Source: Dicyema japonicum (taxonomy: Eukaryota > Dicyemida > Rhombozoa > Dicyemidae). Taken from it: a stretch of 42,855 nucleotides of DNA. Made by a program: the position numbers and the translations under genes. The notes under the pieces were generated by a model, which saw only the letters and a program-made list of their open reading frames with translations, had not been told where the DNA came from and ran no database searches. The stretch is taken from positions 9,402 through 52,256 of the forward strand of contig RDEW01000044.1 of assembly GCA_011109175.1 (NCBI GenBank), given 5' to 3'. Shown here in pieces: positions 3,994 to 28,493 of the stretch (position 1 is the stretch's first letter; the number at the start of each line of letters is the position of its first letter).

Positions 3994-4726
3994 ATGACTA
4001 GTAACTCTATGATTGCATTCATTTATTCCGATTGCGCTTTAATTGCCTCTGATTGTGTTAAGGATAATGATATTCCTATGCGTGACTCTTAGTAATTTAC
4101 ATATAGCTGGCGATAACTTTTGCTACAGAATATTTCAAATCACCGATTTTATAGCAGTTGGGATATCAGGGGTAGAAATCGGAATTATAAACTTATACTA
4201 TGAGTCATTCAACATAATATAGTTTCTGTCATCATTAACAGATAGTGAACATTATTATAAGGAATCTCATGTTTCTTTTTCGTTATCATATTTTTCCGGT
4301 AAACTCGCTGCTTATATGAAAAGTCATCGATATCCGACGGTTTGACGTTAATCTATTTTAGGAAGCTATAGTCATTGGCCTTGATAAGGATATGAAGGTT
4401 AATCTGATGAAAATAGACACTAAGGGAAATTTGGCTGTGAAAGATATAGCTTGCATTGGAGCTAGATCAGCAGAGGTTCAGAGAATTTTAACTGAATAGT
4501 ATTTATGTTCTCATTGCTTTTAGTGTTATAGGTTACCATCCTGAAAATACTGATCTTGCTGTTCTAATCTCCTTTAATCTTTTATTTAATGAATCAACGT
4601 TTAAACGCTTTGGGGTTTTCACCAAGAGTATTAGCGTATATTTTTTTAGTGTGGATTATTGGTCCTTCTATGGAAAAGGGATGTTTCATAACTATTAACA
4701 GAGATAGAAAAATCCAATTTGTTTAA
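3994..4726 (+). CDS. PSMB2: Proteasome subunit beta type-2 (beta 4)-like, six exons
   Basis: This is a structural beta subunit of the 20S proteasome core. Exons are 3994-4081, 4107-4221, 4246-4339, 4362-4498, 4524-4627 and 4650-4726. The introns are 25, 24, 22, 25 and 22 nt, all GT-AG. Splicing gives 204 residues; human PSMB2 has 201. The N-terminus reads IAFIYSDCALIASD, matching the LIGIQGPDYVLVASD strand of PSMB2. YRIFQITDFIAVGISG corresponds to the segment leading to the LLCVGEAGD motif, and VIGLDKDMKVNLMKID to LLAGYDE...LYYMD. There is no propeptide and no catalytic Thr1, as expected for a beta-4 subunit. The unspliced sequence has frame breaks at every intron and could be mistaken for a pseudogene. 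A paralogue with the same exon plan lies at 14374-15086 on the opposite strand. I am confident of the family; which of the two copies is the working subunit is open. Confidence 0.88.
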
Positions 4727-5786
4727 ATTATTTAAAATTTAATTTATTAAAATATTTCTTTTTATTTATTTCAAATTCGTCTTATATTGTGGTGTTGTGG
4801 CTTTATGTTACCTGAAAAGATCAGAATGGCTTCCATCAAGTTTGATAGGAGAGACCAGAAGGGCATTCGTCCATGAAGGACAATATTTTTGAATTGTTAA
4901 AAAATCAAAGATTTTAATAGGACGACTTTACTAAGAATTATTGAAAATATACTATAATTACAATGTCTCTGACAATTAAGCTGTTGTCCTAAGAAATGAC
5001 CCAAAAAACTGGAAACTGAGTCGAAATCCACATATGACTTGGTCTTAGTGACACTAAACAATGCAACTATAAGTCATATGCACGTAATAGGTCGATGAGA
5101 GGCTCAATCCATGAAACTTTTGAAATTTAGTTTTTTAATTGTAGCTTTGTACTAAGAATTCTAGTTCTGTTCAATTTATTATACTGAACAACATATGCTT
5201 CCTTGTTTTTAAAAATATTTGCGAGTTAGTAACCCTACTAATATCTCTCTGTTTCTTCTAAAGGTATAATGACCAAGTTCTTCCAAATTTTGTGTAAATA
5301 TGATTCAAAGTGGGAACACAGTATATCCGACGCTTAATGTCTCAAAACTTCTTAGATCAAACGTCTTCTTAGTTCATTACTTCCATTACTTGCAAGATGG
5401 GTTAAATTTGAGACCTCATCCTGAAATCACCGCATCAACCATCCGAAAGCTTGGTTTTATCTTAAATATTTAAAAACGATTGGATGATTCTGTTCACTAG
5501 CCTCTTCCACTCCTTAGGAATCTCAAATCAGCATTGAGAACATCACAAACATCATAGTTGACGTTTACAGAATCTTCCCTGATGCTTATGTAGTCTTCAG
5601 TGATGGCATCTTTCTGTGTGCAGACGGTTGAAGACAAACCTGTTCGCCAGGTCCCAATATTTTCTCCTTTCAATAACCTCGACTCTAGAAGATTTAAAAT
5701 CCACACGTGCTAAAGTTAGGCATATTTGTAATAGGATATATCCATAAAGGGAGTTCATAGTGACGATCAAGTGGATTACTGCAAAC
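4727..5786. other. Intergenic DNA without a recognisable gene
   Basis: This AT-rich stretch lies downstream of the proteasome gene. Reading frames near 5497-5851 on the minus strand are open for 60-84 codons in three overlapping frames but match no family I know. No intron-joined exons could be built. Confidence 0.4.
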
Positions 5787-6150
5787 CAGGGGTACCCAAA
5801 CTTTTTCATCCAGCGCCCCCTTTGCATAATCAAAAACAATATTTTCCCCAAGCAAGTAATATGAATTTATTTCCAAGAATTATTGACGCAGCAAGTTGCA
5901 AATAAATTCTATATTTTTCAATATTAAACATAAACTATTCTCCACATGCGATATCTCAAATGAACTTATATTCTGAGAAGGTTGCTACATTTCTGATATC
6001 AATACTTCTAGAATTGATGGAATAAGTTATTCACCAATTGTGTGAGGCTCCCCAATGATTAAAGTGATTTTATGAAAACAAAATTTTTTGAAAATATTGT
6101 CTCTAACCTGCGTTGACCGTTTTGTTTTTTCTTTAGTTTTTGGTCCGCTA
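5787..6150 (-). mobile_element. hAT-type (ZBED/SCAND3-like) transposon remnant
   Basis: The minus strand encodes ITLIIGEPHTIGE followed by a broken continuation. This matches the KPHTIGE motif of ZBED5/SCAND3-like proteins derived from hAT transposases. The left end at 5787 starts CAGGGGTACCCAAACTTTTT and continues into GCGCCCCCTTTG, a typical hAT terminal inverted repeat. Stop codons interrupt the frame soon after the motif. A second degraded copy with the same motif lies on the minus strand near 17.9 kb. Confidence 0.6.
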
Positions 6151-6476
6151 AATTTATAAAATATAAAAACCGTTTGTATATTCTTTTTCAATCTGGAAAG
6201 TTTCATAACATTGTTTAAAATTATTCCAAAGACCAGAATAACCAAACTAACCAACTCCTTGATCCTTCGAACGTTCCAGAACTTGTCTCCAGGAAACAAC
6301 ATTGTACCCATGGGAAAGAATAGTTGCATCCTCTTGATGCCGGCCAAGAATTGGGCGTCTCCTAAGAAAGGTGGACCCAATGATGCGATCGGAGGAAAGG
6401 AAAATAATATTTGACCAACTAACCACATATCACCACATGGCGTCACGCGCCTCGTTTGAAAACAACTTTGGGCATA
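6151..6476 (-). other. Open frame upstream of the hAT remnant
   Basis: A 139-codon minus-strand frame (6027-6446) begins here and runs into the hAT motif. Its first two thirds are hydrophobic and unrecognised. Its start overlaps a dispersed motif, CCAACTAACCACATATCACC at about 6416, that recurs near 12570 and 18520. I regard the frame as a chance or decayed transposon frame rather than a host gene. Confidence 0.35.
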
Positions 6477-6627
6477 TAGAGAAAAAAAGTTTTTTTACAA
6501 AATATATTTTTTAATTTTTTATAAATCGTGAAAAAAATTAAAAAATATTATTACAATATCCAATTATACTTTTAAGAAATGGCCAGTCCTTGACATTATA
6601 ACATAAACTCGATTATACAACTCGCTA

Positions 6628-7060
6628 GTGAAACTTATACTACTATGTAACGCTGGTACCTGGGCATGCTCAAGAAATAAATTAAGGATGCTTATTGCAT
6701 TTCATAGAGACCAACTACGGCAGATGATGTTCAAAAGAAGTTATGCGAGGATGTTATCTAATCTTCTCTATAAAAGGACGAGGACCTCTGAAATTTTAAA
6801 TGAAATTCTGGATACACGATAGAGGCTTTTCGGCCATATTCTGCGACTAAACCTAGATTTCCCCGCGAGCGTAGCCATGGAGGATTATTTCATGTTTGAA
6901 GCCCCCCGTTTCCATGGTCGCCCAAGGACGACACTGCCAGTCGTTCTCGACGAGGACTTCAAAGAAATGGGACGGCATCTTGGAAGTTGAAAGGATCTGA
7001 CTGGTTACGTACTGCGGCTTTGAATAAGAGGAAGTGATTGAAATTAACTATGAATTGCTA
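6628..7060 (+). mobile_element. Family D non-LTR retrotransposon, C-terminal fragment
   Basis: The plus strand encodes FHRDQLRQMMFKRSYARML, then LFGHILRLN, then FHGRPRTTLPVVLDEDF. This is the C-terminal region after the reverse transcriptase in RTE-like elements, where FGHVLR and GRPRTTLP are hallmark motifs. The frame has stops before and after these blocks, so the copy is dead and 5' truncated. It is the same family as the copies at 11.6-12.4 kb, 32.8-33.9 kb and 36.4-36.7 kb. Confidence 0.75.
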
Positions 7061-7170
7061 ACTCGTGTTGCACATGCTTTGTCAAGTCCTATGTCATAGC
7101 GATAAGTGCAAATAATAATAAATGGCCTGTTTTCTGTCGTCAGGAAGACATGATGATTGTCCAATTTCTT

Positions 7171-7453
7171 ACAAATACGCACGTAAATTCACTTGGTGAC
7201 CACAACGTAAGCGCGTCAAGTGGACACTAATTTTTTTTGAATTAATGAATCACAATAATTCATTAAAGCTTTCGCTTCCGAGGTTAAATGGAGAAATATG
7301 TCCACCCTCGCCATTCCAATTCCTTACAAATACGCACGTAAATTCACTTGGTGACCACAACGTAAGCGCGTCAAGTGGACACTAATTTTTTTTGAATTAA
7401 TGAATCACAATAATTCATTAAAGCTTTCGCTTCCGAAGTTAAATGGAGAAATA
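7171..7453. repeat. Tandem duplication, 155-bp offset
   Basis: ACAAATACGCACGTAAATTC at 7171 recurs at 7326, and the copies stay nearly identical for about 125 bases. There is no N between them. An open frame of 77 codons (7443-7676) starts in the second copy but has no recognisable family. Confidence 0.7.
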
Positions 7454-7659
7454 TATTCACCCTCGCCATTTTCATCACACATTCCTCCGTTGGAGAAATC
7501 ACTTCATTCATTGGCGGAAGACCTTTCACTGTGAAAATTTTCACCTAACTGATTGTCGTTTAGAGAAGCTTAATGTTTATTTGTCTAAAAGCTTATTGAC
7601 CAGCAAGAAAAAAGCTGTTAGGAATAGTGTTTTTGGTGATATATACAAGTCCTATAAAT

Positions 7660-7940
7660 TTGTTAAAACGAGCTAATGCGAGCTAATAGGTGTTTGCTGT
7701 GAATGGCGGAAACACAAATACGAGTGGCGGGTAACGTAAAATAAAATTAACCACATCATTTAGGGATTAGAAATGTGGTATGTGTCGTAGNAAATTTGTT
7801 AAAACGAGCTAATGCGAGCTAATAGGTGTTTGATGTGAATGGCGGAAACACTTGTAGGATTACAAATACAAGTGGCGGGTAACGTAAAATAAAATTAACC
7901 ACATCATTTAGGGATTAGAAATGTGGTATGTCTCGTAGTT
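7660..7940. repeat. Duplication around the single-N join at 7791
   Basis: The block AAATTTGTTAAAACGAGCTA before the N is repeated immediately after it, and both copies end in the same CATTTAGGGATTAGAAATG segment. One copy carries a short extra insertion. The N between the copies points to unmerged contig ends. Confidence 0.7.
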
Positions 7941-8030
7941 GTGCGCCTGTAATAATTTACAAATTGGAGCTTGTGTCCGATCGCAACTTAGCGTTTTATC
8001 AGGTTATTCTTGTGTCCATATGTATTCAAA

Positions 8031-8480
8031 ATTAATTTACATGTCAGAAGAAATGGGAGAAACTTTGACTTCCTCTACGTTAATAACAAGTTTCATTACC
8101 TCCAAAAATGCACACTCGTATTTCAGATGTAAGTGTTCAACCAGACAGTTTCGTTTGTGTATGTAGTTCGTACGAATAAGCATAAGATTTTCGAATTGAG
8201 TGTCGTAGAGAAAATACGAGTCTTTTTTTTTTATTCAGGGATTTTTAATGNCAAAGTTAATTTACATGTAGGAAGAAATGGGAGAAACTTTGACTTCCTC
8301 TACGTTAATAACAAGTTTCATTACCTCCAAAAATGCACACTCGTATTTCAGATGTAAGTGTTCAACCAGACAGTTTCGTTTGTGTATGTAGTTCGTACGA
8401 ATAAGCATAAGATTTTCGAATTGAGTGGCGTAGAGAAAATACGAGTCTTCTTTTTTTATTCAGGGATTTTTAATGAATTT
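8031..8480. repeat. Duplication around the single-N join at 8251
   Basis: About 215 bases before the N at 8251 are repeated after it with a few differences. The plus-strand frames of 74-75 codons at 7939-8357 are copies of one another, and neither resembles a known protein. Confidence 0.7.
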
Positions 8481-9777
8481 ATTACCATGGTAAATGACAA
8501 TATGTGGGATTGTAATTTTAGCTTGAAGCTCTTGTAGGAAAATAAAAAGATAAAGAGCCAATAGTCTTCCAAAATTATTGAGAGTCATATCTTCGTGTCC
8601 TTATCTAAGAAGAGACATTTTATTGCAAATCAGCAACAAAGCCGGTCCGCATTCGAATATTTTTTGAATTATGCAAACACGACACATAGAAAAAGTGTTT
8701 TTTAAAGAACAAATCTGACGCTTCAAGATGGAGAAACAACGATACTGCAGGGCTAAGTAGAGATGATCTTTTCTGGATTTGGGTGGAATTTAAACGTTAA
8801 GGGAGGAAAACATCTCGATGATGAAAATGATGGTTCAGTGAATCTGTCTTATTATCCCATTCACAGGGAAAAAACACAACTTGACACGGATTTGGTGGAA
8901 AGCTTAACAGTGTTAGTTTTTATGTTCCCAACATTAATCCCTTAGGTATGACCGGCAGCTAGATATAGGTAATTTCATACGTTTCTGATAACCGTTAAGA
9001 GGCCACCATCAATCCCTTAACCAGTTTTTGCAGATTACAAAATAACTTTTTACTAAGGTAACATTACAGGATTAAAAAAAATTTACACGCTCTTTCCTAT
9101 CAAACAACTACAGAAAGTGATCCGATGGCCTCATGTGATCCAAGTGTTTCCAGTAACACGATGAAATGAGAAAAAAAATCGTCGTTTTCTTATCTCTATT
9201 CAAGGAGTTCACATAATTAACGACTGAATGTTTTCTTCACTATTTGCTGATATAGATTGACTTTTGTGACATTGGAAAATCTCTTTATTTCTTAGAGAGA
9301 AAGTTAAAATATAAATTTTTAATAGAAATACAATTTATCAGGCTCCACCATCCAAGAGACAGTTTTATTGTCACAGACGATTGCAAGGCGTTGTGAGAGC
9401 TTCTTTCACTTGGGTTTCTGTCTCGTGTCGCGATTATATTTTCGAATTTATTGATAATTCTTGTATCTATTCTCTTAAGGAAACACTTGATGAAAATCGC
9501 ATCCCACGTTTTCTAATACTGTTTCTTCTAGAAATGTCCTTTAATAGGTCTCTCTTACAGATCCGGGTTTTGGATATGGCCTAGTTAACTTCTCTCTGGG
9601 TTTACACGAAGAAAATTAATGTGAAAGTTCAAAAAGACATACAACTTTTTCGGTCCTCGCTTGAGGGATCGGATTTATTCGTAAAGATTATTTCATCAGC
9701 CCCGACTGTTATAGGAAATGACGTTGATCATGAAGTTACTACTCATTTCTATATAAATTCCCTGCTTAACATAATAT
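8481..9777 (+). other. Possible exons of an unrecognised gene (8763-8940, 9330-9580)
   Basis: Two open stretches on the plus strand, 8763-8945 and 9381-9584, have balanced composition. They end near GT and AG dinucleotides that could bound mini-introns like those in the confirmed genes. I could not join them into one unambiguous frame and recognise no domain. They may be real exons or chance frames. Confidence 0.25.
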
Positions 9778-9967
9778 GTCACGAGCCTAGGGTGTTACCG
9801 AGCCTAGGTGGTTTCTTCAAATAGACACTAATTCCCTATGCTGTTTTTATTTAATAAAAAAATTTAATTTCCTTTATTTATCTCAAACAATAAATTAATT
9901 TTCAATCTTTATCGAAAAATAACCTAAGTTTAACCACCTAGGCTCGGTAACATCCTAGGCTCGTGAC
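9778..9967. repeat. 36-bp inverted repeat with 118-bp spacer
   Basis: The left arm 9778-9813 and right arm 9932-9967 are reverse complements with a single mismatch. Each arm contains two copies of GAGCCTAGG, so every arm carries two CCTAGG palindromes. The spacer is AT-rich and non-coding. The structure could form a long hairpin, and it resembles a small MITE without a recognisable target-site duplication. Confidence 0.85.
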
Positions 9968-10152
9968 AAAATAACCAATGGTTGTGACGAAATTAGTAAA
10001 GTATGTTTAAAAAGCCAATAAGTATTGTTCCATAGGATAGTCATATATGATGATAAGAAATACACTAACATTCAAGATGGTCTCTAGATTTACAAATTTG
10101 TTGACTCTTTCATTAAAGAACTTTCGAAGACGATAGTAATCAAAAGAAAAAT

Positions 10153-10223
10153 GCATCAGCCGGGAATCGAACCCGGATCACAAGGTTGGAAGCCTTGCAT
10201 AATAACCATTATACAACTGATGC
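10153..10223 (-). tRNA. tRNA-Gly (anticodon UCC)
   Basis: On the minus strand the 71-nt sequence folds as a cloverleaf. The acceptor stem is GCATCAG/CTGATGC. The D arm is GTATAATGGTTATTATGC, the box A region. The anticodon stem CAAGG/CCTTG encloses the loop CTTCCAA with anticodon TCC. The T arm CCGGGTTCGATTCCCGG carries a perfect box B. A run of five T follows the acceptor stem within three bases, giving a polymerase III terminator. There is no encoded CCA, as in eukaryotic nuclear genes, and no intron. Confidence 0.96.
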
Positions 10224-10806
10224 ATTTTTTATTCATAACTATATAAAACAATAAATTTAAATTTCATAAATAATAAAATATTTTCAATATTAAAATATGT
10301 CTGCTATTTGATAGCTCTTATTTGTGCAAAATTATCCAGAAAAAATTCTTTTAGTTTATTCCTCTTTCGCACGGTTTTGTGAACTTTCCAGAGATGGTTA
10401 GACTGGGATTTCAAAACTTGCAGGATTTTTGTTGCATATATTTTATGTTTTTGTAGCTTCCCTTGTCCGTGATGTTCCCATTTTTATATCAAAAAAGTAG
10501 AAGGATTTGTTAGCTTCACATTTATTAATCGCTAGTAATCGTTATGATGAATTATCTTGTATTTGTCAGGTTTTCTGAACTCTCATAGATATTTTAATCA
10601 CCTGATCTGAGTTTGCTATGGAATATATCATCTTTAGATCGACTTTTTCACGTTTCTGACTATTTTACTTTGAGTTATAATTTGACTCTTAGTAGCGTCT
10701 GAAAATATCATAAGTGACAACGAAAGAACAAATGCGATATTTTAAATAATTTATTTTTATTTTTAAAATTATTATTTATGTCTCGATTTATAATTGTTTT
10801 CCTAAT
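10224..10806. other. AT-rich DNA, no gene seen
   Basis: Nothing recognisable lies between the tRNA gene and the duplicated block at 10.8 kb. All frames are short. Confidence 0.45.
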
Positions 10807-11515
10807 TTAAACATAAATAAATAACACGACGTTCTCGATTCCAGGTTTCCAATCTAAAAGGATGTCACTTCTCAGACGGCCCTTTATTGGCCTTACTAAT
10901 CTATTCTGATACCTTATCAGAAGGACGACATCGATGTATGTTTTCACTAGAGACAAAGCAATCACTTTTACATTCCTCTGCAACACCACTGTCAGATCAA
11001 CTACTAGGAATAATTACTCGAGTAGGAATAAAGGACATGACGACTTCCTAGTTGCTACAATCTCTCTTCCTCTGCGGAATAAAATCTCTCATTACTAATG
11101 AACATAAGAGATGCACATAACCCCTCAGTATAAAGGATTTTGTATTTTCTTGAAGGACTTGCAAAATTATCAAGACATGTTGAGTGGATATACAAATGCA
11201 AAAAATCAAACCTAGTTGANGTATGTTGTCACTAGAGACAAAGCAATCACTTTTACATTCCTCTGCAACACCACTGTCAGATCAACGACTAGGAATAATG
11301 ACTCGAGTAGGAATAAAGGAGATGACGACCCTTTAGTTGCTTCAATCTCTCTTCCTCTGCGGAATAAAATCTCTCATTACTAATGAACATAAGAGATGCA
11401 CATAACCCCTGAGTATAAAGGATTTTGTATTTTCTTGAAGGACTTGCAAAATTATCAAGACATGTTGAGTGGATATACAAATGCGAAAAATCCAACCTAG
11501 TTAAAAAATAAAATG
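10807..11515 (-). repeat. About 295-bp duplication around the N at 11220, with possible exon
   Basis: Sequence around 10925-11215 is repeated at 11221-11515 with a few mismatches, separated by one N at 11220. On the minus strand a long open frame covers much of it and includes LTVVLQRNVKVIALSLV and RLVRPIKGRLRSDILLDW, ending at 10807. It may be a real exon of an unrecognised gene that the assembler doubled. I do not recognise the family. Confidence 0.5.
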
Positions 11516-11591
11516 GCCGTCACTAGAAGAATCCTTATATTGGTATCCTGGAACCTGTAATCCTCAACAATACACGTGGACACTGTATAGC

Positions 11592-12390: not shown

Positions 12391-12566
12391 CAATTATGTT
12401 TCTAGGATAGTTGCCTATAATAATAATCAATACACAGTAATGTCTTGATTAAAGTGCATGAAAAAAATTCTAATGGGTCGATTATTCCTTGAAAAAAACC
12501 TATCATTTTGAATTTCAACTATCTTAATAGCGTGAAGAGTATTAACAGACAAAAAAGAACTTCAAC

Positions 12567-12605
12567 CAATTAGCCACATAGCACCACATGCCATACTTTA
12601 TTTTT
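12567..12605. repeat. Dispersed motif (CCAATTAGCCACATAGCACC)
   Basis: This motif also occurs at about 6416 and, as part of a palindrome, at about 18515. Its positions beside transposon remnants suggest the terminal sequence of a non-autonomous DNA element. Confidence 0.4.
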
Positions 12606-12624
12606 TTAAATTTATTACATACAG

Positions 12625-13120
12625 AAGAAGCGCCGGAAGGGGAACACGTCATGCTGCTCTGAATGATGTGATCGTCAGAGCTCTGACGGCTTCAGGCTTC
12701 CCAGCACAGTTTGAACCGATGGGTCTTGATCGAGGAGATTGGAAGAGACCTGACGGGATGACCCTTTTCCCCTTCACGTCTGGAAGATCTTTGGTCTGGG
12801 ACGCAACTTGCATAGACACGTTCTCAAGCACGAACATTTTTAAATCGGTTCAGACACCTGGAGCAGCTGCTTCGACTGCGGAAAACCTAAAAATCAAGAA
12901 ATATTCTTGCCTCGGGGATCGCTACCGATTTACTCCTGTTGCGACCGAATCATCGGGAGCCGTTGGTCCAATGACGGCTGAATTCTTGCAAGAACTCGGA
13001 GGATTGCTTGCCAGAAAGAAAAGGGATCAACGAGAAGGGTTATGGCTAAGACAAAAGATTGGAATAGCCATACTCCGAGGGAACTCGTTCGCAATCCACG
13101 CAGCAGGCTTCCTCAACTGA
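12625..13120 (+). mobile_element. Family B retroelement, KRPDG C-terminal domain
   Basis: The frame from 12668 (150 codons) encodes the C-terminal domain of a non-LTR-like retroelement family common in corals and other invertebrates. Its hallmark order is DRGDWKRPDGMTLFPF, then SLVWDATCIDTFSSTN, then AENLKIKKYSCL. The RPD...D spacing resembles the PD-(D/E)xK restriction-like endonucleases of early-branching non-LTR elements; that functional reading is my inference. The sequence upstream is lost. A stretch of this copy (12790-12930) is nearly identical to 41935-42066, which lies inside another element. Confidence 0.75.
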
Positions 13121-14373: not shown

Positions 14374-15086
14374 TCAGTTTAAAATCATATTTGCAATGTC
14401 GGAAATAAAGTTCCCCTTTTGAATTATCTGATTGAGGTACCAAACTGAATAAGTATGATGACTACTTGTATACTTTCCCAAGTTCGTCAAAGGCTCCGCA
14501 TTGTAGAAGACATTGGAAGCTACCCGGATAGCATCATTAGTATCCGCCGGTCTGTCACTTCTTAGTCTACAGTGATGGAGTACATTTACAAGCGAATTAA
14601 ATCCCTCACCAACAGCTTTGCGCTAGATCCAATGCAAAAGACGTCGTTAGCGTAAACATTGGCTGTGACGTCAAAGCACATCAAACTAATAGAATTCGAC
14701 TCGACTCCGAGAATTAGCAACTCCTAAAGTACGCAATTCCCCCAAACTGTGTCAAATTTTCGTCCTTTCATATATTTTTGAAGTTGGGGTACGAAATGTC
14801 TCATCGGAATACAAATCCGATATTGTTGAAAATATTGGCTATTTTTTTAGTAAAAAAAAAACTTCGCGTAATATACGGATGCGTTGTGTAAGTCCAGAAC
14901 TTCCCATTCCACACCAAACATTCCAACGGCGAGAGACTTTGTTATTTGAAATATCCTGATGCAAGGATCATCGCTATCTGAATGTAATAAAATGTCACAT
15001 TGAGGAGTATCGTTATCACCTGCAGAGTCGGAGGCAATTATTGCACAGTTTGAGTATTTAAATGCAATAATCACGTTACTCGGCAT
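14374..15086 (-). CDS. PSMB2: Second proteasome subunit beta type-2 (beta 4)-like gene, six exons
   Basis: This is a paralogue of the gene at 3994-4726. Exons are 15086-14999, 14977-14863, 14838-14748, 14723-14590, 14566-14463 and 14444-14374. Introns are 21, 24, 24, 23 and 18 nt, all GT-AG. The spliced protein has 200 residues. Exon lengths are 88, 115, 91, 134, 104 and 71 nt, against 88, 115, 94, 137, 104 and 77 in the other copy. All five intron positions are therefore shared. The N-terminus VIIAFKYSNCAIIASDSAGD and the CIRIFQITKSLAVGMFGVEW block match the PSMB2 fold. LQKYMKGRKFDT plus ELLILGVE spans the third intron and corresponds to the [22 protein letters not shown] region of the human protein. 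The two copies differ at most residues, so the duplication is old or one copy evolves fast. Confidence 0.87.
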
Positions 15087-18845: not shown

Positions 18846-18849
18846 TAAA

Positions 18850-20147: not shown

Positions 20148-20330
20148 CAGGCATCATCCCCTACCTGCGAAGACATAATGAGGTGGTTAAATGCATGTGC
20201 ACTTGTGTCGTCAATATGGAATTAAGAAGACTAAAAACAGACTCAGTGCAGTCTATTGTTGCAAACAAGTCTATAGAGATTCGAGTGGATCAACAGTAGA
20301 CACGAAGGTACAAAAATACACCTGAGAGAT
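20148..20330 (+). mobile_element. Family A retroelement fragment
   Basis: The plus strand encodes YLRRHNEVVKCMCTCV and then SIVANKSIEIRVD. This matches the segment after the zinc knuckle in the family A copies at 21.4 and 35.4 kb (YLRRHNEVVKCIYLHLC). It begins abruptly next to GCTCAGGCA at the end of the family B copy. Confidence 0.6.
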
Positions 20331-20925
20331 TAAAGTATGATCAAAAGAACTTATAGCTTTTAAATGGTCAGTAAGTTAAATGGAATAGTGTCCTCTCAAA
20401 AGAACGTCACACTATTTAATGAATACAACAATTTCCTTGGTCAAATTGGACAATTAAAACGCATTCAAAAACATAGAAAGATCATATTCTGTCATTATGA
20501 AGAGATACCCAAATAGTTGGGTTAATCAATCAGTCTTATGTACCTCATTCTACTCTTCTGTGAATATCTAAGGAAGACCCTATTGGATCTCTTTTTTTTG
20601 CTATTGAAAAAATAACAATTTTGTATCTGAGGATTCCGCTTTGATATCTTAAAAATTTGGCCTTGCGTTGAATAAAAATAAATATTAAATTATTAATTAT
20701 TTTTCTCAAGCCTTTTGTTAATTTTATTTGTTGTTAGGTTGTATTTTTTCCTTGGTTCTCTTATAAATAAAAGTGTAGATACAGTTATGTTTAACAAACG
20801 TTCCTATGCCTTCATCACACTGTTTCTACTGAATAAAAGTCCTCATATTTTTCTTTACGGGCAATGCTATATTATATTGATGATCTATTTAACCAGGTTC
20901 ATTTATAATTTTTTTTTCAACTATT
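20331..20925. other. AT-rich DNA, no gene seen
   Basis: Only one open frame longer than 60 codons occurs here (20715-20948). It is Phe/Ile/Leu-rich, as expected from AT-rich non-coding DNA, and crosses the N at 20926. Confidence 0.4.
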
Positions 20926-20926
20926 N

Positions 20927-21380
20927 CAAAGCGTGTCGACACAAGTAGCGTCCCAGACCAAAGGTTTCCCCTCTTCAAATGGAAAAATTGTGATCCCGTA
21001 GGGACGTTTTCCGTCTCCTCTGTCCAGGACAACAGGTTCTAGTATGGCTGGGTATCCCGTAAACTCCAGGGCTCGCTTGACAATTTTGTTGATCGCCTTG
21101 TGTTTTGGGAATCGTCCTGCACTTCTTCGACAAGAGAGGGCATGGTGTCTATAACAATAGACGGTGGCGCCACATTGGCATTTGTGAGTCCGGCAAATCT
21201 CCAGTCCAAGTCTGGTGAAGATGCCGCTGCAAACATATCGTCGTCAAGGTGGGTCCCGACACTACCAACGGGGAGTGCATTGATCCATGCGCCACTCGAC
21301 GTCTGTGTTGGTTTGATTGGTTCAGAAGCTTCTCATATTTATCCTCGTAGATGGTCCTGTAACGGTCTTATTGCTCAGGC
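20927..21380 (-). mobile_element. Family B retroelement C-terminal domain, copy 2
   Basis: Starting directly after the single N at 20926, this repeats the family B sequence of 19690-20150 with only a few substitutions. It ends at the same GCTCAGGCA junction. The near identity and the N suggest either a recent duplication or the same locus placed twice by the scaffolder. Confidence 0.75.
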
Positions 21381-22150
21381 AAGATAGGAATTTGTTTTTT
21401 GCACACACGGGGTCATTATGCAACCATTGCAAAAAAAACAGGAAACTGTAGATCAGTTGGCCACTCAGTGTAGTAAAATACTAAACAGTGATTATCTCCG
21501 AAGACATAATGAAGTGGTAAAGTGTATCTATCTTCATCTTTGTCGAGTTTATGGAATCAAAAGAAGCAGGAAATTGAAAGGACATTCGGTTCAGTGAATA
21601 TTGAGGACTCAAAATGTCGAAATCAAAGTTGACACGTCGATTATGACAGAAACAAAAGTCCAATTCAATAAACCTGATATTTTTGCTTACGAAAAATAAA
21701 GAAAAAAGTAACCTTAATCGAAGTGGGTATTACCTCACAAGACTGACTAAAGCAAGTTGAAGTTTAGAAACTTCAAATATATGATTTGCTTGCAAATGAT
21801 CTTTCACTACTCTATGAATCCCAAGTAAAAATTATTCCAGTGGTTTTGACATGGGATGGAGTTGTCTCATGATGCTTCAGGAATAATATGGGTAACTTAT
21901 CTTTGAAGAATCAACGAGGATTTGCATCTAATCGGTTGTGCTAAAGAGTATGCTCATTGAACATAAGCATGGGATGAAAATATACGATGAAAAGTACGCC
22001 TCTGCTATCTCCCAACTTGTAGAAATGGCATGCCTTGAGGACAGCCCACTTGAATCTAACAGATATATTTTGACTAAATCTGATGTGGAGATGGGGAGTA
22101 ACAGGGAGTTTATGGCACACTTTTCTAAGAGAAGTTTTGAATTTATGTAA
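21381..22150 (+). mobile_element. Family A retroelement C-terminus with restriction-like endonuclease
   Basis: This is the C-terminal region of an RLE-type non-LTR retrotransposon of the CRE/R2 kind. In order it encodes a zinc knuckle CNHCKKNRETVDQLATQC, then YLRRHNEVVKCIYLHLC, then MTETKVQFNKPDIFAYEK, TLIEVGITSQD, YDLLANDLSLLYESQVKIIP and VLTWDGVV. KPD followed by LIEVG is the PD-(D/E)xK active-site arrangement of these endonucleases. Several stop codons and frame changes make the copy inactive. The last frame (21938-22150) is the decayed end. A second copy of the first third lies at 35.35 kb. Confidence 0.75.
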
Positions 22151-22256
22151 TTAATCAGATCCTTTATTGCCCAGAGACTGAATATCTTGTAATATATAAT
22201 TTGTGAACAATTATAAATAATTAAATATCAATATTCACTAATTGTAAAACAGTTGA
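22151..22256. other. Short AT-rich spacer
   Basis: Nothing is recognisable between the retroelement end and the minus-strand exon cluster. Confidence 0.4.
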
Positions 22257-22790
22257 TTAGGCAAATATTGTTGATGCGAAATAAAATACCTGGAAACTGT
22301 AGTCTGGTCCATTAGCCACGAAAACTATTTTGTCGTTGCTTGGTAAGGGAGAGAGTTTGTTCTGTTCGACACTAATGTAGGAATTTTTCTCCACAAATAG
22401 GTGACTCATGTGTAAACCACAATAATGGTCAGCCTTCTCCGCCATCGGATATACCTGGAACGTCCGCTTAGTTTCCTGTTTGACACTGGATTCCTTCACT
22501 TGAAGGAAGTAAATAAATAAGATGTAAAATGACTCAGATTCAAGAATTTCCTCTTCAAACATTCACTTTATTATAGTTACTCACAATCTTCACCTCAATA
22601 GACTCGAATATAGCATTATCAGATAATAGCCCATAGTATCCACAAATTTAGTGAGTTAGTGGGGATTATCTCAAAGGTCAAACCAAAAATGCCATAAAGG
22701 GTTAAACTTAGGGAATCGTCATCAAAACTAAATCTGAGAATTGAAATATCTTTAAATAATGAGAGAATATAAATTATCACAAAATTAATA
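22257..22790 (-). CDS. Unrecognised exon cluster downstream of the DLC1-like gene
   Basis: I do not recognise this product. The minus strand has good open stretches that look like exons. The largest (22562-22257) encodes VYPMAEKADHYCGLHMSHLF and NSYISVEQNKLSPLPSNDKI, then VFVANGPDYSFQ, ending at a GT that could be a donor. Upstream pieces include SFDDDSLSLTLYGIFGLTFE and SIEVKI. The alternating hydrophobic pattern suggests a beta-rich fold. Candidate mini-introns exist between them, but no single joined frame is clearly best, so start, end and exon borders are uncertain. It lies on the same strand as the DLC1-like gene, 3' of its stop codon. Confidence 0.4.
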
Positions 22791-22831
22791 AATATTTGTG
22801 ATTATTAAAAAATAATTAATGATTTTTACAT

Positions 22832-24547
22832 CTAAGCTGTAGTTTCCAATGTTTTGCGCAATTCATTAACATAAAATTTAAGTCGTTTTCCAAGGACGAT
22901 GTTATTCCAGTTTAGAGATCTCCCCCTATCATAATTATCACATTTTATACTTTGGGTCGATTGATATAAAGTGGGTAAGCTTACAGCATTCACCACGCGG
23001 TTCAATAAAGTACCCGAAAAACTGACAGTCCATTACAGCAAAATTCCCGTGATTACTGTATTCTAGGGATCGTCCAACGATAGCGTAGTTTCCATCAATA
23101 CTCTGTTTGTGCCTTTCCGGTAATAATATGAGTTGTTACCATATCATGTAGCATATTCTGTCCACAATCCATTTTTCTTTGAATGTTACAATTTCCGTAT
23201 GCTTAGTGAGACTAGTCACACTGTACTCATCCTGCAAAAACCAGCCAATCCTTTAATTAACAAATTAATGCTACTTTTTATCAAAAATCTGATTGACTGT
23301 CGTTTTTACGTCGCACTTCAATCCATTTTTCTTTGAATGTTACAATTTCCGTATGCTTAGTGAGACTAGTCACACTGTACTCATCCTGCAAAAACCAGCC
23401 AATCCTTTAATTAACAAATTAATGCTACTTGTTATCAAAAATCTGATTGACTGTCGTTTTTACGTCGCACTTTACGGAAGTCTGACATCGCCAAATCTTC
23501 AAAATGGTGTCCTCGAACAACCGGGATTTTAATTCCACGCCATTTCCATTTGATTCCGTGGACTTTTCGTCCTCAAATTCACAATAGTTCACGTACTAAT
23601 GTGAAACAGACTCAAACTTGATACAAGTCACTGATAAGCTTGTTTATGATAATCATAGGATTTTTGGGAGGGATAAACCTAACATTTCCCTGGAAGTCTT
23701 CAATCTGGGGTCTGCGAGTAAACAAACCTCAAATATGAAGTCATAGTGATTTATTAGTATTTCAGAAAATTCAATCGACTGGTTTTTCCATGCTATTTCC
23801 TCCTTCAATTTTGAACTCATACTCCTCATAGACCTTGGTTTTGACATTTTCCTAGTGAAGATTGTTTCACAGAGACAAACACTGAGATTGTAGGCAGTCA
23901 TCTATTAAATTTAACACAGTTCATACATGAGTTCGTTCACTGTTTTTAGATATTTTGTTTAGCAGTCTAATCCACATAATCAACACTTCTCTGTTTGTGT
24001 CTGGTAATAGGGTCACCAAGTCTCTAAGTAGATTAAGTCGCTTATTCTTGTCAACTGGAATTACTAATAAATCAACCATCAAAGTGAATCAAATCAGTGA
24101 AAGGTTTAGTAAACAAAGGTTCTGTACTATTTCTGAGATATTTGCTAACAACAGTGGAAATAACGTAATTATTGTATTCCAGTAGAGAAAAACATTCTAC
24201 ACTGGTAAAATTAAGATACCATTGTTGAGTATTTTTTGATACAAATCTTCGTTCATCGTCGCACTTCCTGCTTTTCGGAAAATAAACTGAAGATCTGTGG
24301 CATTCTCGTAAAGGTGACAAATTGCTTCTTTTATGACAGAAGGGATGGGGGACCCTGTAGTTATATAATTCACAAGGTAGTCATTTTTGTTGTTATCTGA
24401 CAGATATTTTTTCGAGAATCTAGAAAAACTTGATTTTTTACTTTGGGATTATTTTGACGATTTCTGACCTGGCAAGATTTCGAGAGACTTCAAGCTGTGA
24501 AACCGAGGAATTCCATATACTATTTTTGCGACTAGAATGAGGCACAT
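22832..24547 (-). CDS. DLC1: RhoGAP-START protein, DLC1/STARD13 family
   Basis: This is a Rho GTPase-activating protein with a C-terminal START lipid-binding domain. The RhoGAP part includes VYGIPRF, then GSPIPSVIKEAICHLYE, LQFIFRKAGS (the arginine-finger loop; DLC1 has VGLFRKSG), STEPLFTKPF (DLC1 PEPLFTNKL), DTNREVLIMWIRLLN and MTAYNLSVCLCETIF (DLC1 MTPMNLAVCLAPSLF). The START part includes IWRCQTSVKC, then SIDGNYAIVGRSLEY, VMDCQFFGYFIEPRG and CKLTHFISIDPKG (DLC1 LTHICRIDLKG). GT-AG introns are at 24197-24219, 24055-24076, 23902-23926, 23705-23727, 23596-23617, 23113-23139 and 22926-22950, that is 22-27 nt. Another of 18 or 30 nt lies near 24441-24458. Joining near 23410-23450 is unresolved, partly because of a tandem duplication there. 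The start at 24547 is tentative, since the frame is open further upstream to a possible acceptor. No SAM domain is seen. Confidence 0.85.
23165..23472. repeat. 154-bp tandem duplication inside the START-encoding region
   Basis: Sequence 23165-23318 is repeated at 23319-23472 with about one difference. The unit includes exon sequence for DEYSVTSLTKHTEIVTFKEK. Read literally, the gene would encode this segment twice with a frame conflict, while a single copy aligns with the family. An assembly artefact is likely. Confidence 0.7.
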
Positions 24548-25020
24548 AATGCACCTCTCAGAAAATGGTAGACATATGTTTAACTGAGATTTCTGTGATT
24601 TGCTTATCTAAATTTTATGAAAAATTATGACATTTGTGAGGTATTTTAATTTAAAATCTTCTTTATTGTTATTATTGACGTTGGGTTTATTCGAATATTT
24701 GATCAAATCGGGAATCTCGTAGTCCTCGCTTTTGGGAATAAGTTTTATGTTATCTAATGAAGATGAAAACTATATACTCAGAGATCCACTTGATAAATAT
24801 CTATGCTTTATAGTGAACTGTTTGATGTATGATTCCTTTCGGGCTAGTCGAGGTTTAACCAAATATTCTTTATTTGGAAGCAACATTTATCGTTTCTACT
24901 AACTACGTGGTTAACGCAAAATAAATTGCATATTAGATAGTTGCCATAGCGATTATACAGATATTCACTGCGTCTATTCGTTTAAAATCATTATAAATTA
25001 TGAATAAGCTAGAAATGACA
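24548..25020. other. Upstream region of the DLC1-like gene
   Basis: The minus frame stays open for about 17 codons above the tentative ATG, back to a TTTAG acceptor-like site, so an earlier exon may exist. Beyond that I see no exon that I can attach and no SAM-domain sequence. Confidence 0.35.
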
Positions 25021-25248
25021 TATTGTTTCGATTTTTACTTATATTATAAGTGCTCTTAATGAGAACCATGCTTAGGCGATAATTTATACTGATTAACTTT
25101 GAATTCAACAAAATTAACGATAACACCAACATATTATTGTTTCGATTTTTACTTATATTATAAGTGCTCTTAATGAGAACCATGCTTAGGCGATAATTTA
25201 TACTGATTAACTTTGAATTCAACAAAATTAACGATAACACCAACATAT
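25021..25248. repeat. 114-bp tandem duplication
   Basis: The unit TATTGTTTCGATTTTTACTT at 25021 recurs at 25135, and the two copies are virtually identical for 114 bases. The internal repetition in the 82-codon minus frame here comes from this and is not a real protein repeat. Confidence 0.85.
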
Positions 25249-25275
25249 AAAAGTACGATGCACTCTAAAATACCA

Positions 25276-25475
25276 CAGTGATTGATATTGGAGAAATATC
25301 TGAGCAGTCAGCATAATCAAGTGAGACTACATTCTCCCAGGCTTGTTTGAATTTATCATTAATACCATCACTTGTTTTAGAGGCATAAATCAATTCCTTA
25401 GGGATATTTACGCATTATAGCCAAAACCTTATTTGTATCTTCCAACTTGCGATCACTCACGTGTGCTCTAACCTC
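25276..25475 (-). other. Candidate exon, unrecognised
   Basis: The minus strand is open through ELIYASKTSDGINDKFKQAW and ENVVSLDYADCSDIS, ending at a stop near 25272. A possible 31-nt GT-AG intron precedes it, joining to KLEDTNK. It lies 3' of the valyl-tRNA synthetase and could be a separate small gene or a missed last exon. I do not recognise the sequence. Confidence 0.3.
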
Positions 25476-25477
25476 GA

Positions 25478-25662
25478 TTTGATGCCAGAATATTCATTAT
25501 TGATTTTTATTAATTTAATAAAGCATTATTTTAAGGAAAATCTAAAATATCAGTAGCAGAAACTCTAATATTTGATGCCAGAATATTCATTATTGATTTT
25601 TATTAATTTAATAAAGCATTATTTTAAGGAAAATCTAAAATATCAGTAGCAGAAACTCTAAT
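25478..25662. repeat. 93-bp tandem duplication at the 3' end of the valyl-tRNA synthetase gene
   Basis: Sequence 25478-25570 is repeated at 25571-25662. The unit contains the last coding bases, the putative last mini-intron, the stop codon and an AATAAA polyadenylation-like signal of the valyl-tRNA synthetase gene. The second set lies beyond the stop and is not needed for the gene model. Confidence 0.85.
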
Positions 25663-28493
25663 TCCGTCATTAATTTTAATTATAGTAGGATTATCAGGTA
25701 AGGAGAGCACCAGTTCATCCACTTTAGTGAGATATTTAATGACATCACAATACTCATTCAAATAATCTAGATCAGTTGCGTCAACGTAAACTGCACTTAT
25801 AAAACACAAAATACATCTTTTTGGTGTCCTGAATTCCCCTCTGAGAGATCTGACTAACTGAGTGACCTTTATGACGGTTTCCATTCTTCTACATGCTACC
25901 TTGCTATCAAAATTCCACATTTCAGGCCATTTTCTGTAAGCAACGGGTTTGTACGATTCCTTGCCTCCGTGATAAAGCAGCCACTCGCAAATAAATGGAA
26001 TAAAGGGACTCAACAAGACTAAACAGCATTGACTACACCTATAAAGACACTGTTGAATAGACTGAATCTCATCACTGCATACAGTATTGAACCTCCACTT
26101 TGTCGCCTCCTTATTATCAAAGTTATGTGAATAACAACCAAATAAAATCCACACAGTTCATTCAGCCAAAAATTGCGAAGTTGTGACAGAATCAAATGAA
26201 AGTCTCGATTTTCGAAATGAACGTCAAACGAGGCCACAATCTGTGATGTCCGAGAATACATCCACATCTCCATATCCGTTTCAAATCCAGTCAACTAAGC
26301 ATTATAACCAACAATCACAAGTGGAATTGGCAGTGGAGTAAAATCAGGGGACAATTTCATGTTAATAAAGCGAATAGTCTGCCATATTTTATTAAAAAAC
26401 ATGCGCACTGAAGTGAACAAATCTGAGCCTACCTTTACATGTGAGACTAAAATAAGAAAGAAGGAAACCTTTTATTTCATGAGAACACAAAGCAAATCTC
26501 AGAGAATCTGCTCCAACGACAAAATTATTATGCATAGGTCTCTAAGCATAACAAATCACAAACCTCAATAAAATTAAGGGGATCAATGACATTGCCCACA
26601 GACTTACTCATTTTCCTACCCTTTCCGTCACAAACTAATCCGTGAAGCAAAACACCATCAAATGGCATCTTCCCCAATAATAGCAAAGACATGAGCATCA
26701 TACGGGCAACCCAAAAGAAGACGATATCACCACCAGTTTCCAAGAGAGCTTGAGGAAAATATTGATCAAGGTTTGGATTATCTGGCCACCCAAATACAGC
26801 AAATGGAAGAAGAGCAGCAGAAAACCACGTGTCTAGCACATCGCTATCCTGTTCAACTGTTATTGTCTCAGGATTCGAATTAGGGAACATCTGACCAGCG
26901 ATATTGAACGCCTGTTCCTTTGATCTAGAAACAATCCAACTCGAATCAACGCCGTTGGATACTTTGAAGGCTGGAATTCGGTGTCCCCACCACAATTGAC
27001 GAGAAATACACCAATCTGGTGACTTACTCAACCATTCCTTCAATATATTCTCATAAAAGGGGGGAGTAATCCTAGGATTTCCAGATCTTAGTGTTTCGAG
27101 AACTTTTCGATGTCCATCTCGACAATCCATAAACCACTGTTCCATGATGATTTTTTCCAAAACATCTCCAGTTCGACTGCACGTGGGTATTTGATAGGAA
27201 TGATCAACATTTCCAGAATACAAATTTTCCTCTATCAGTCTGTCTACCAGAAGTCGACGAACTTCAAATCGGTTTAATCCCTAATTTTATGAGATAATAA
27301 GCTAAACGTCGAAAGGAGTATCTGTCCCAAAAATATTCCCAGAGTCATCGATAATCCTACTTCCCGGTTTAAGCCCATGTTTGCTGGCTAATTCATAGTC
27401 AACTGGACTGTGATGAGGAGTTATTTTCAGTCCTCCCGATCCAGTCTCTATATCGACGGATATGTCTCCAATAATGGGAAGATTTTGACGCGTGAAAGGG
27501 TGGAAGACAGAACGACCAATAAATCTGTTCCATCGTTGATCGTTTGGGTGCACCGCCACGGCCATGTCTCCCAACATTGTCTCTAGTCGTGTTGTCGAAA
27601 CTGTCAATCGTTCATCTTAACAGTAAAAATGCAAACTACCGGAATCAACAATTGGATAAATAAAGTTGTGAAGGACCCCAAATTGTACTTTATACGGGTA
27701 GTTGGGGACATTCCTAAAACACTCCCCGTCGACTTTCAGGAGATTTACCTAAGACATAGAAAAGATGAGTGCCTCAATATCTGAAACAACTGATTGCAGT
27801 GCAGGACACCAGTTCACGAATCTATTAGATCGATAGATCAAACCCATCTCATAGAGACGAATAAAGGACTCCTCCACCGCGGCAGTCAGATTCTGTCTTA
27901 AATTACGAGACCAACCTTATCCATTGTGAAATATTTGAATCGTTTATCGAATGAGCATCCCAGTTTAGCCAACTGGTTGTAAATCTCCCCTTCTTTGCTA
28001 ATTTTATAATATCACAAAACCTTATCCGCCATTTCTGAACCTCCTGGATAAAACCATTCCTTCCAAGATCAAATCTGTTCACTCCTTTAGATTCTGCCAA
28101 ATGTCGTTCAACAATCGTCTGTGTTGCAATTCCAGCATGGTCACAGCCGGGGACGAACAGAGTTTTCTCCCTTCCTTCAAATCTCTTCCTGCGAACTATG
28201 ATATCCTGCAATGTGCAGCCAAGAGCGTGCCCCATATGAAGATTTCCAGTTACATTTGGCGGTGGCATGCAAATTACAAATTTTTTGCAAGAATCCTCCT
28301 TTTCTATATTGAAATGCCCTGATTTCGTCCACCATTTTGTGAGGACTGGTTCTATTGACAGAGGATCGTATTTAGTATTTAATTGCCCTGAAATTATGTA
28401 AAAGTTACCTTTTTGGCCAAATATTCGCTGGAGGGAATTACCGCATCCCCTTATGACCAATTTAATAATGTTATTTGTTTTTAAATTTCTCAT
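25608..28493 (-). CDS. VARS2: Valyl-tRNA synthetase, probably mitochondrial (VARS2-like)
   Basis: This class I synthetase charges tRNA-Val. Introns are 28388-28408, 27998-28020, 27893-27915, 27749-27772, 27616-27639, 27281-27307, 26542-26563, 26447-26468, 26295-26318, 26110-26138 and 25635-25656: 21-29 nt, GT-AG except the GC-AG one at 27749-27772. The twelve exons sum to 2625 nt, giving 874 residues. In order: [16 protein letters not shown] (HIGH motif), [11 protein letters not shown], an editing (CP1) region with [64 protein letters not shown] (KMSKS motif), [12 protein letters not shown] and an anticodon-binding domain with [20 protein letters not shown] and NKIW are closer to vertebrate VARS2 than to cytosolic VARS1. 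The Arg/Lys/Asn-rich start [16 protein letters not shown] fits a mitochondrial presequence. The C-terminal coiled-coil arm of VARS proteins is missing. An AATAAA follows the stop. The last intron is optional, since reading through it also meets a stop. Confidence 0.93.

Follow-up and report, generated by a model that had tools for sequence, protein, structure and literature searches.

The window, the whole stretch of 42,855 nucleotides that was analysed, carries two PSMB2-like genes, a DLC1-like RhoGAP gene and a valyl-tRNA synthetase (ValRS) gene. The observation that predicted ultra-short introns of about 23 nt interrupt these genes holds. The putative introns, and two ValRS segments kept outside the count, are as follows.

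4082..4106, plus strand: PSMB2-like copy 1 intron 1, 25 nt GT-AG; paralogue-guided spliced alignment, Pfam 38.7 bits
4204..4245, plus strand: PSMB2-like copy 1 intron 2, 42 nt GT-AG, beyond the first-pass range; paralogue-guided spliced alignment, frame kept
4340..4361, plus strand: PSMB2-like copy 1 intron 3, 22 nt GT-AG; paralogue-guided spliced alignment
4499..4523, plus strand: PSMB2-like copy 1 intron 4, 25 nt GT-AG; paralogue-guided spliced alignment
14978..14998, minus strand: PSMB2-like copy 2 intron 1, 21 nt GT-AG; alignment to copy 1 with a small gain (151 versus 146 without), Pfam
14839..14862, minus strand: PSMB2-like copy 2 intron 2, 24 nt GT-AG; hand-placed, supported by paralogue alignment and Pfam (45.7 bits)
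14724..14747, minus strand: PSMB2-like copy 2 intron 3, 24 nt GT-AG; hand-placed, supported by paralogue alignment and Pfam
14567..14589, minus strand: PSMB2-like copy 2 intron 4, 23 nt GT-AG; hand-placed, supported by paralogue alignment and Pfam
24197..24219, minus strand: DLC1-like intron, 23 nt GT-AG; hand-placed within the RhoGAP domain (87.9 bits)
24055..24076, minus strand: DLC1-like intron, 22 nt GT-AG; hand-placed within the RhoGAP domain
23902..23926, minus strand: DLC1-like intron, 25 nt GT-AG; hand-placed within the RhoGAP domain
23705..23727, minus strand: DLC1-like intron, 23 nt GT-AG, weaker; hand-placed, open frame only
23596..23617, minus strand: DLC1-like intron, 22 nt GT-AG, weaker; hand-placed, open frame only
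23405..23428, minus strand: DLC1-like intron, 24 nt GT-AG, weaker, in two copies through the tandem duplication; hand-placed
23113..23139, minus strand: DLC1-like intron, 27 nt GT-AG, weaker; hand-placed, open frame only
22926..22950, minus strand: DLC1-like intron, 25 nt GT-AG, weaker; hand-placed, open frame only
28388..28408, minus strand: ValRS possible intron, 21 nt GT-AG, in frame and stop-free, outside the count; read from sequence, the homology alignment starting inside it
27998..28020, minus strand: ValRS intron, 23 nt GT-AG; spliced profile alignment
27893..27915, minus strand: ValRS intron, 23 nt GT-AG; spliced profile alignment
27749..27772, minus strand: ValRS intron, 24 nt GC-AG; spliced profile alignment
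27616..27639, minus strand: ValRS intron, 24 nt GT-AG; spliced profile alignment
27281..27307, minus strand: ValRS intron, 27 nt GT-AG; spliced profile alignment
26542..26563, minus strand: ValRS intron, 22 nt GT-AG, weaker; chosen by hand, the ab initio model agreeing
26429..26468, minus strand: ValRS probable intron, 40 nt GT-AG, outside the count; spliced profile alignment
26295..26318, minus strand: ValRS intron, 24 nt GT-AG; spliced profile alignment
26110..26138, minus strand: ValRS intron, 29 nt GT-AG; spliced profile alignment

The PSMB2-like copies have four introns each, and both appear to encode Proteasome-family products: Pfam scores are 38.7 bits for copy 1 and 45.7 bits for copy 2 (residues 6-166), with a cut-off of 22.4. 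"PSMB2", rather than another proteasome subunit, is only a putative label, and a solved-structure search with an earlier model of copy 1 gave no match. When the DNA of copy 1 is aligned to the protein of copy 2, the score is 268 with introns and 90 without them; the maximum in 40 shuffles was 46. A 38-nt intron first placed in copy 1 was rejected because stop codons remained, and the 42-nt placement replaced it.

Aligned with splicing to a profile built from 12 animal homologues, the ValRS gene scores 1421 with introns and 589 without. The alignment returned introns of 23, 23, 24, 24, 27, 24 and 29 nt, including one GC-AG, together with placements of 13 and 40 nt; at 26542-26563 the aligner's 13 nt was set aside by hand in favour of 22 nt. 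Leaving the boundaries free does not change the first five lengths. GT-AG is the best of 256 boundary pairs compared (1390), by a small margin over the runner-up (1367), and the rest average 930.

The spliced RhoGAP domain of the DLC1-like gene scores 87.9 bits, versus 17.7 when the first stretch is simply read through without splicing. The best solved-structure match is Rho GTPase-activating protein 7, which we take to be DLC1; Pfam gave no START domain match in the product. Three of the eight introns lie within the RhoGAP domain and the other five restore an open frame. The gene contains a 152-bp tandem duplication. Single-N junctions, some adjoined by repeated blocks, occur in the window.

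The first-pass annotation had counted 28 introns of 18-29 nt in these four genes. Of the 24 placed here, 23 measure 21-29 nt and one measures 42 nt; with the probable 40-nt ValRS intron, this shows that the range is not strict. The mean it gave, about 23 nt, agrees with 23.96 nt over the 23 window introns other than the 42-nt one. In the same 23, donors are GTTT (8), GTAT (4), GTTG (3), GTGA (3), GTAG (2), GTAA (2) and GCAC (1), and acceptors are TAG (15), CAG (4) and AAG (4), so GTTT, GTAT and GTGA are frequent donors and TAG the main acceptor, as had been described. That each removal restores alignment with the family was borne out for 18 of the 24, by homology or domain alignment, but not for six, which depend on a restored frame or hand placement alone.

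The same intron size recurs outside the window. All 37 introns of PRPF8 are GT-AG and 20-26 nt long, though lengths up to 300 nt were allowed, and the spliced score is 9746 versus 816 without introns. This size is shared, on several contigs, by genes for aldolase, U2AF2-like and SF1-like proteins and the proteasome. The earlier statement that such introns occur throughout is thus upheld over a small sample of loci rather than the whole genome: PRPF8, two copies of aldolase and nine gene models confirmed by Pfam.

Dicyemids are tiny parasites of octopus and squid. Removal of five introns from aldolase leaves 361 amino acids that align without a gap to the 361-residue protein of Dicyema acuticephalum (A4PCF1), with 269 of 361 identical (75%), a fit that lends indirect support to removal of the introns from RNA; the other 119 aldolase matches listed (of 7999) reach at most 62%. 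Searches with the ValRS and PRPF8 proteins named no dicyemid among the matches listed. On the aldolase sequence the window is dicyemid DNA, in agreement with the link drawn at first pass, and this kinship rests on that one gene.

A pooled set of 100 introns has a mean length of 23.5 nt (SD 1.68), with 97 within 20-27 nt. Left out of it are the 42-nt intron, three ValRS segments (the 40-nt and 13-nt placements and the possible 21-nt one) and those model introns that fall beyond Pfam ranges. Ninety-nine are GT-AG and one is GC-AG, ends that were required for placement. Interiors are 83% A+T, G stands at +5 in 13, and a 5' splice-site consensus beyond GT is nearly absent. Complementarity to U1 at +3 to +6 is in slight excess (1.48 of 4 versus 1.25 +- 0.09 shuffled) in an earlier set of 98, which still contained the rejected 38-nt placement. 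A depletion of lengths divisible by three is not convincing (28/100 versus about a third expected).

The gene finder trained mainly on PRPF8 retained only four models, and a second model was applied to the loci. With flat 15-120 nt priors, the first model, its codon scores largely PRPF8-trained, recovered 34 of the 37 PRPF8 introns correctly, and the second, trained on other genes, 26 of 37. Over 50 sources the second model placed 91 of 137 introns in 19-27 nt (58 of 88 without PRPF8 and the window). The 31 Pfam-confirmed introns are uninformative on the long tail because the model was restricted to 16-40 nt; introns of about 40 nt also occur, in ValRS and PSMB2-like copy 1.

That the introns are spliceosomal, as first proposed, agrees with the lead of GT-AG over the other 255 boundary pairs and with genes for U1, U2, U6, PRPF8 and U2AF2-like and SF1-like proteins in the same genome. 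Genome searches matched U2 snRNA at 155 bits and U6 at 108 bits. The best U1 match has 69 bits, none of 11 exceeding the 69.5 cut-off, and 5' ends read ACUUACCUGG in five of six loci. Canonical pairing stretches are present in all three snRNAs. U2AF2-like and SF1-like genes are present, and apparently SPF45-like and PUF60-like genes; the PUF60-like assignment is our own reading of two RRMs and a C-terminal part without a Pfam match, and the SPF45-like one our own reading of the G-patch half only. Loss of U2AF2, SF1, PUF60 or SPF45 was rejected as the cause of short introns, since relatives of all seem present; for the same reason gene presence does not single out the acting factor. U12 and U6atac snRNA matches were also found. 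None of the 100 introns has the U12-type RTATCCTT donor and TTCCTTRAY branch site, and a short U12-type pattern searched genome-wide gave 38 matches versus 65 for a reversed control, not above it. Three textbook-looking candidates among the 38 were inspected and rejected, none lying in an open frame.

The introns seem to carry a weak, degenerate branch-point-like signal at a fixed place, with the A 6-7 nt before the 3' end. The triplet TNA, its A falling at -7/-8, occurs in 60 of 100 introns and is missing from 40; dinucleotide shuffles predict 30.9 (z 6.5), and none of 600 reached 60. The signal appears in this positional test only: YTNAY, YTRAY, CTRAY and other motifs counted anywhere in the intron are not enriched. 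It is unlikely, though worth weighing, that the introns are real and this TNA is an effect of composition rather than a branch site. The two positions were selected after the first 100 introns had been viewed, PRPF8 introns abound in runs of ATT, with A falling at -4, -7 and -10, and PRPF8 alone gives a weak signal (20/37, expected 13.6, z 2.25). Against this, the signal survives dinucleotide shuffling and is stronger without PRPF8 (40/63, expected 17.3, z 6.55). It recurs in a second set that played no part in the selection, 53 model introns of 19-28 nt outside Pfam ranges that are unverified predictions from the same loci (28/53, expected 13.0, z 4.9), and A+T-rich GT-AG decoys fall below expectation (47/200, expected 61.7), with no enrichment.

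Readings that dispense with splicing fare worse. Assembly or sequencing errors, or decayed gene copies, might be suspected from the single-N junctions with adjoining repeats, the 152-bp duplication, the divergence of the PSMB2-like copies and the lack of a solved relative for copy 1. Random indels would not, however, produce GT-AG ends, with a mode of 23 nt and the frame conserved, at 37 places of PRPF8, and the pattern is seen again in other genes on several contigs (aldolase, U2AF2-like, SF1-like, proteasome); PRPF8 by itself already makes this reading very unlikely, and we give it hardly any weight. Least probable of all is that the segments are excised as DNA, like the internal eliminated sequences of ciliates, which have comparable lengths, or are kept in mRNA and bypassed in translation. 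TA-TA, the mark of such ciliate sequences, comes second to GT-AG among the 256 pairs in the A+T-rich PRPF8 gaps (9170 versus 9746), the genome has snRNA genes of the spliceosome and the introns a branch-like signal, and PRPF8 is animal-like (81% to a bird across the 1345 residues used in the search).

What very probably accounts for these features jointly is that the protein genes of this dicyemid are cut by ultra-short U2-type introns, normally 20-27 nt and some near 40 nt. The major spliceosome would define an intron by its pair of ends, set a fixed distance apart in A+U-rich RNA. The U2 snRNP would pair with a weak yUnAy, the A of which would lie about 16-17 nt from the intron start, leaving 6-7 nt to the end; this choice would also set the 3' AG, and U1 pairing would be only loose. 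Because there is little room in the intron, U1 and U2AF/U2 could probably not sit side by side and would act in sequence, with an SPF45-type protein as a plausible stand-in for U2AF2. We lean towards the more specific view that dicyemid introns do have a branch signature (degenerate yUnAy, A 6-7 nt before the 3' end), that length varies mostly upstream of the branch A, and that this geometry is what ordinary U1, U2 and U6 use to select introns in A+U-rich RNA, a convergence on the layout of Stentor; with its U12 and U6atac snRNA genes the genome may also have a minor spliceosome that operates under that constraint. We found no earlier report of the positional signal or of the U12 and U6atac matches in the literature searched.

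An animal spliceosome that removes introns of about 23 nt would be a natural test of the minimal intron need and of site choice without a strong consensus, and a positional signal would make the branch A and its distance from the 5' splice site predictable. Genomes of this kind would probably be misread by gene finders and splice-aware aligners whose minimum intron setting exceeds 20 nt.

The core finding is already known, ultra-short dicyemid introns having been published since 2007. Those of D. acuticephalum are reported as 26.2 +- 1.9 nt (n=16) and 24.93 +- 2.51 nt, median 25 (n=41) (Aruga et al. 2007, PMC2222250; Irimia and Roy 2008, PMC2483917). Uniform ultra-short introns and a very weak 5' splice site are common to that species and to ours. 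Our introns are a little shorter, at 23.5 +- 1.7 nt (n=100; Welch p 0.001 versus n=41), in a set of non-random genes with the two longest placements left out. Irimia and Roy 2008 report no branch-point signature in D. acuticephalum introns, unlike the positional signal found here. Short introns, with a reported median of 27 bp and mean of 38.2 bp, are given for the genomes of Dicyema sp. (PMC6543705) and Dicyema japonicum (PMC6736024); the mean may, we infer, be raised by tool length limits. The D. japonicum genome is described as 67.5 Mb with 36.7% GC (PMC6736024), versus 64.7 Mb here, with 36-37% GC in the parts examined.

Introns of similar size are those of Paramecium, about 25 nt, and of the Bigelowiella natans nucleomorph, 18-21 nt (cited in PMC2222250), but these come from protists or a relict nucleus rather than from animals; in PMC2483917 they are grouped with dicyemids as intron-dense and weakly constrained in sequence. 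The first-pass annotation placed the present size near the known lower limit; the known minimum is lower, 15-16 nt in Stentor coeruleus, where the branch A is nucleotide 10 or 11 and lies 5 nt before the end (PMC9505925). Stentor is a ciliate, whereas the introns here are of 23 nt with a candidate A at about 16-17, 6-7 nt before the end. The two share A+U-rich GU-AG introns and conserved snRNAs, and also a weak branch consensus and a near-fixed branch A close to the 3' end, both of them candidates here.

Twenty-four introns were placed in the four window genes, which are two PSMB2-like copies, a DLC1-like RhoGAP gene and a valyl-tRNA synthetase (ValRS) gene; 18 are well supported and six are weaker. 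The first-pass annotation had proposed 28 introns of 18-29 nt in these genes. Spliced alignments confirm that the introns are short, but the count is lower and one intron is 42 nt.

The ValRS gene, on the minus strand, has a spliced product whose best named matches are for the most part ValRS enzymes of animals (about 37-43% identity) and whose first 621 residues match valS models. Aligned to a profile of 12 animal references, with introns of 12-120 nt permitted, the gene has introns of 23, 23, 24, 24, 27, 24 and 29 nt, and additional placements of 13 nt and 40 nt in a less conserved part. With free boundaries the first five lengths are unchanged and the later ones are 10, 22, 24, 29 and 39 nt. 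When boundary pairs were tested singly, GT-AG ranked first of 256, with a narrow lead over TT-GA (1390 vs 1367).

The RhoGAP domain of the DLC1-like gene scores 87.9 bits when spliced, compared with 17.7 bits for the first unspliced read-on stretch, and the best solved-structure match of the product is Rho GTPase-activating protein 7. A Pfam domain search of the spliced product detected no START domain, and good support is therefore confined to the three introns within RhoGAP. The gene also holds a 152-bp tandem duplication (window 23167-23318 and 23321-23472) whose copies are one difference apart and carry an identical 24-nt intron; it is either a real duplication or an assembly artefact.

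Four-intron models of the PSMB2-like copies score 38.7 and 45.7 bits against the Proteasome family. Alignment of copy 1 DNA to copy 2 protein gives four GT-AG introns of 25, 42, 22 and 25 nt and a score of 268, compared with 90 when introns are disallowed and a maximum of 46 among 40 shuffles, although this test is partly circular because the copy 2 reference was spliced by hand. The reverse alignment, of copy 2 DNA to a copy 1 reference, yields only the 21-nt intron because that reference was truncated, and a solved-structure search with copy 1 returned no match.

Single Ns at window 7791, 8251, 11220 and 11945 are flanked, by eye, by repeated blocks of at least a hundred bases and look like unresolved assembly joins. 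Other features of the window are as follows (reading frames identified by eye).

10151-10224, minus strand, tRNA-Gly (TCC)
12536-13117, LINE-type reverse transcriptase/endonuclease-like reading frame
29593-31263, LINE-type reverse transcriptase/endonuclease-like reading frame
32909-33822, LINE-type reverse transcriptase/endonuclease-like reading frame
37752-38945, LINE-type reverse transcriptase/endonuclease-like reading frame
39021-39860, LINE-type reverse transcriptase/endonuclease-like reading frame
40131-42613, LINE-type reverse transcriptase/endonuclease-like reading frame

The same intron size is found elsewhere in the genome, which comprises 64.7 Mb in 191 contigs with a GC content of 36-37% in the parts sampled. 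The gene for PRPF8, a core spliceosomal protein, lies on contig C87; across a searched stretch of 1345 residues its product shares 81% identity with a bird PRPF8. An alignment that permitted introns as long as 300 nt places 37, every one of them GT-AG and 20-26 nt long; it scores 9746 with introns and 816 without, and the next boundary pair, TA-TA, reaches 9170. An ab initio model with a flat prior of 15-120 nt predicts 34 of these 37 introns correctly, with four wrong, but PRPF8 supplied most of the training data for its codon scores; a second model, with ValRS and aldolase as training genes, finds 26 and has 14 wrong. From 50 sources (253 kb) the latter kept 32 gene models with 137 introns, 91 of them of 19-27 nt and the remainder, which are probably mostly errors, thinly spread up to 120 nt. 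With PRPF8 and the window excluded, 58 of 88 predicted introns are of 19-27 nt.

Two aldolase genes are present. One, spliced of introns of 23, 27, 23, 23 and 23 nt, encodes 361 residues that align without gaps to the aldolase of Dicyema acuticephalum (269/361 identical), so an orthologous dicyemid protein lacking these segments is known. That protein, from a species different from the one studied here and in a sequence that we infer to be that of Aruga et al., is the top match at 75%, the other 119 matches listed being at 62% or less; next by score among the matches listed are two plant and two nematode proteins of more than 450 residues. This lends support to the link with dicyemids drawn by the first-pass annotation. 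The second aldolase copy has a 26-nt GT-AG segment at the intron 2 site (locus L055, 2018-2043). Splicing would shift the frame; left unspliced, the segment is in frame and adds nine residues, and it is possibly an intron turned exon or a sequence error.

In the available text of earlier reports, dicyemid introns measure 26.2 ± 1.9 nt (PMC2222250) or 24.93 ± 2.51 nt, the latter with the weakest known 5' score and no branch-point signature (PMC2483917), their median is 27 (PMC6543705), and their mean is 38.2 in an account that gives the D. japonicum genome as 67.5 Mb with 36.7% GC (PMC6736024). The core finding was therefore already known: the observation is confirmed with small corrections, its interpretation is supported, and the phenomenon is a known one.

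One hundred introns were pooled from PRPF8 (37), Pfam-confirmed domains of nine gene models (31, limited by design to 16-40 nt), aldolase (9) and the window (23). In this non-random gene sample, from which the 42-nt and 40-nt introns were excluded, the mean length is 23.5 nt (SD 1.68, median 23, range 19-29). The ends, which were demanded during placement, are GT-AG in 99 and GC-AG in one. Acceptors are TAG (74), AAG (18) and CAG (8), G occupies +5 in just 13 introns, and the interior is 83% A+T. Matching to U1 at +3 to +6 slightly exceeds that of shuffles.

U1, U2 and U6 snRNAs each have several matches, and none of the 11 for U1 exceeds the Rfam cut-off. Despite the weak intron donor, the U1 5' end, ACUUACCUGG, is kept in five of six loci, and the pairing stretches of U2 and U6 are standard. 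The U1 genes at L021-L026 keep the 5' end but score only 52.6-69 bits (Rfam cut-off 69.5), which points to a divergent U1 body. The genome encodes a U2AF2-like gene, an SF1-like gene and two genes that, from their features, we take to be a PUF60-like gene and an SPF45-like G-patch gene. Human SPF45 is described, in the available text, as replacing U2AF2 on short introns with a reduced pyrimidine tract (PMC8363638); by analogy, the SPF45-like protein here may have a similar role.

Single matches were found to U12 snRNA (85.4 bits, cut-off 53; L066 1501-1629, C68:163471-163599) and U6atac snRNA (37 bits, cut-off 33; L059 1501-1598, C34:237761-237858). The pooled set contains no U12-type intron (0/100). 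An exact pattern for short U12-type introns has 38 matches in the whole genome compared with 65 for the reversed pattern, and none of three matches inspected lies in an open frame. A broad minor-intron survey omitted introns shorter than 30 bp, and the available main text does not mention dicyemids (PMC10639083).

Branch-type motifs counted anywhere within the intron are not enriched. Counted by position from the 3' end, the pooled set has more A than expected at -7 (48 against 33.4) and -8 (42 against 33.5), with p 0.014 for the largest excess among 13 positions. The branch-point-like motif TNA has its A at -7 or -8 in 60 of the 100 introns (expected 30.9 from dinucleotide shuffles, z 6.5), in 40 of 63 excluding PRPF8 (expected 17.3) and in 20 of 37 in PRPF8 (expected 13.6); at the remaining positions from -14 to -4, z is below 1.9. 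These two positions were picked after inspection, so the weight rests on a second set and on decoys. The second set consists of 53 introns outside the pooled set, predicted in the same loci and unverified; the model behind them takes A+T content and base -3 into account but not -7/-8. Of these 53, 28 carry the motif (expected 13.0, z 4.9); A+T-rich GT-AG decoys from the window have it in 47 of 200 (expected 61.7). Of the 50 introns outside PRPF8 that have an A at -7 or -8, 41 have T or C as the following base, and TNA followed by a pyrimidine presumably corresponds to the animal yUnAy. In the 60 motif-bearing introns the mean position of the A is 16.8, with 6 nt (33 introns) or 7 nt (27) left after it, a spacing that is fixed because the introns were selected on it.

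In the available text of the open-access dicyemid literature no report was found of a branch-point signal or a minor spliceosome in these animals, and it is the positional branch-point signal that merits follow-up. In Stentor, according to the available text, the branch A lies 5 nt before the intron end (PMC9505925), whereas the predicted A here lies 6-7 nt before it.
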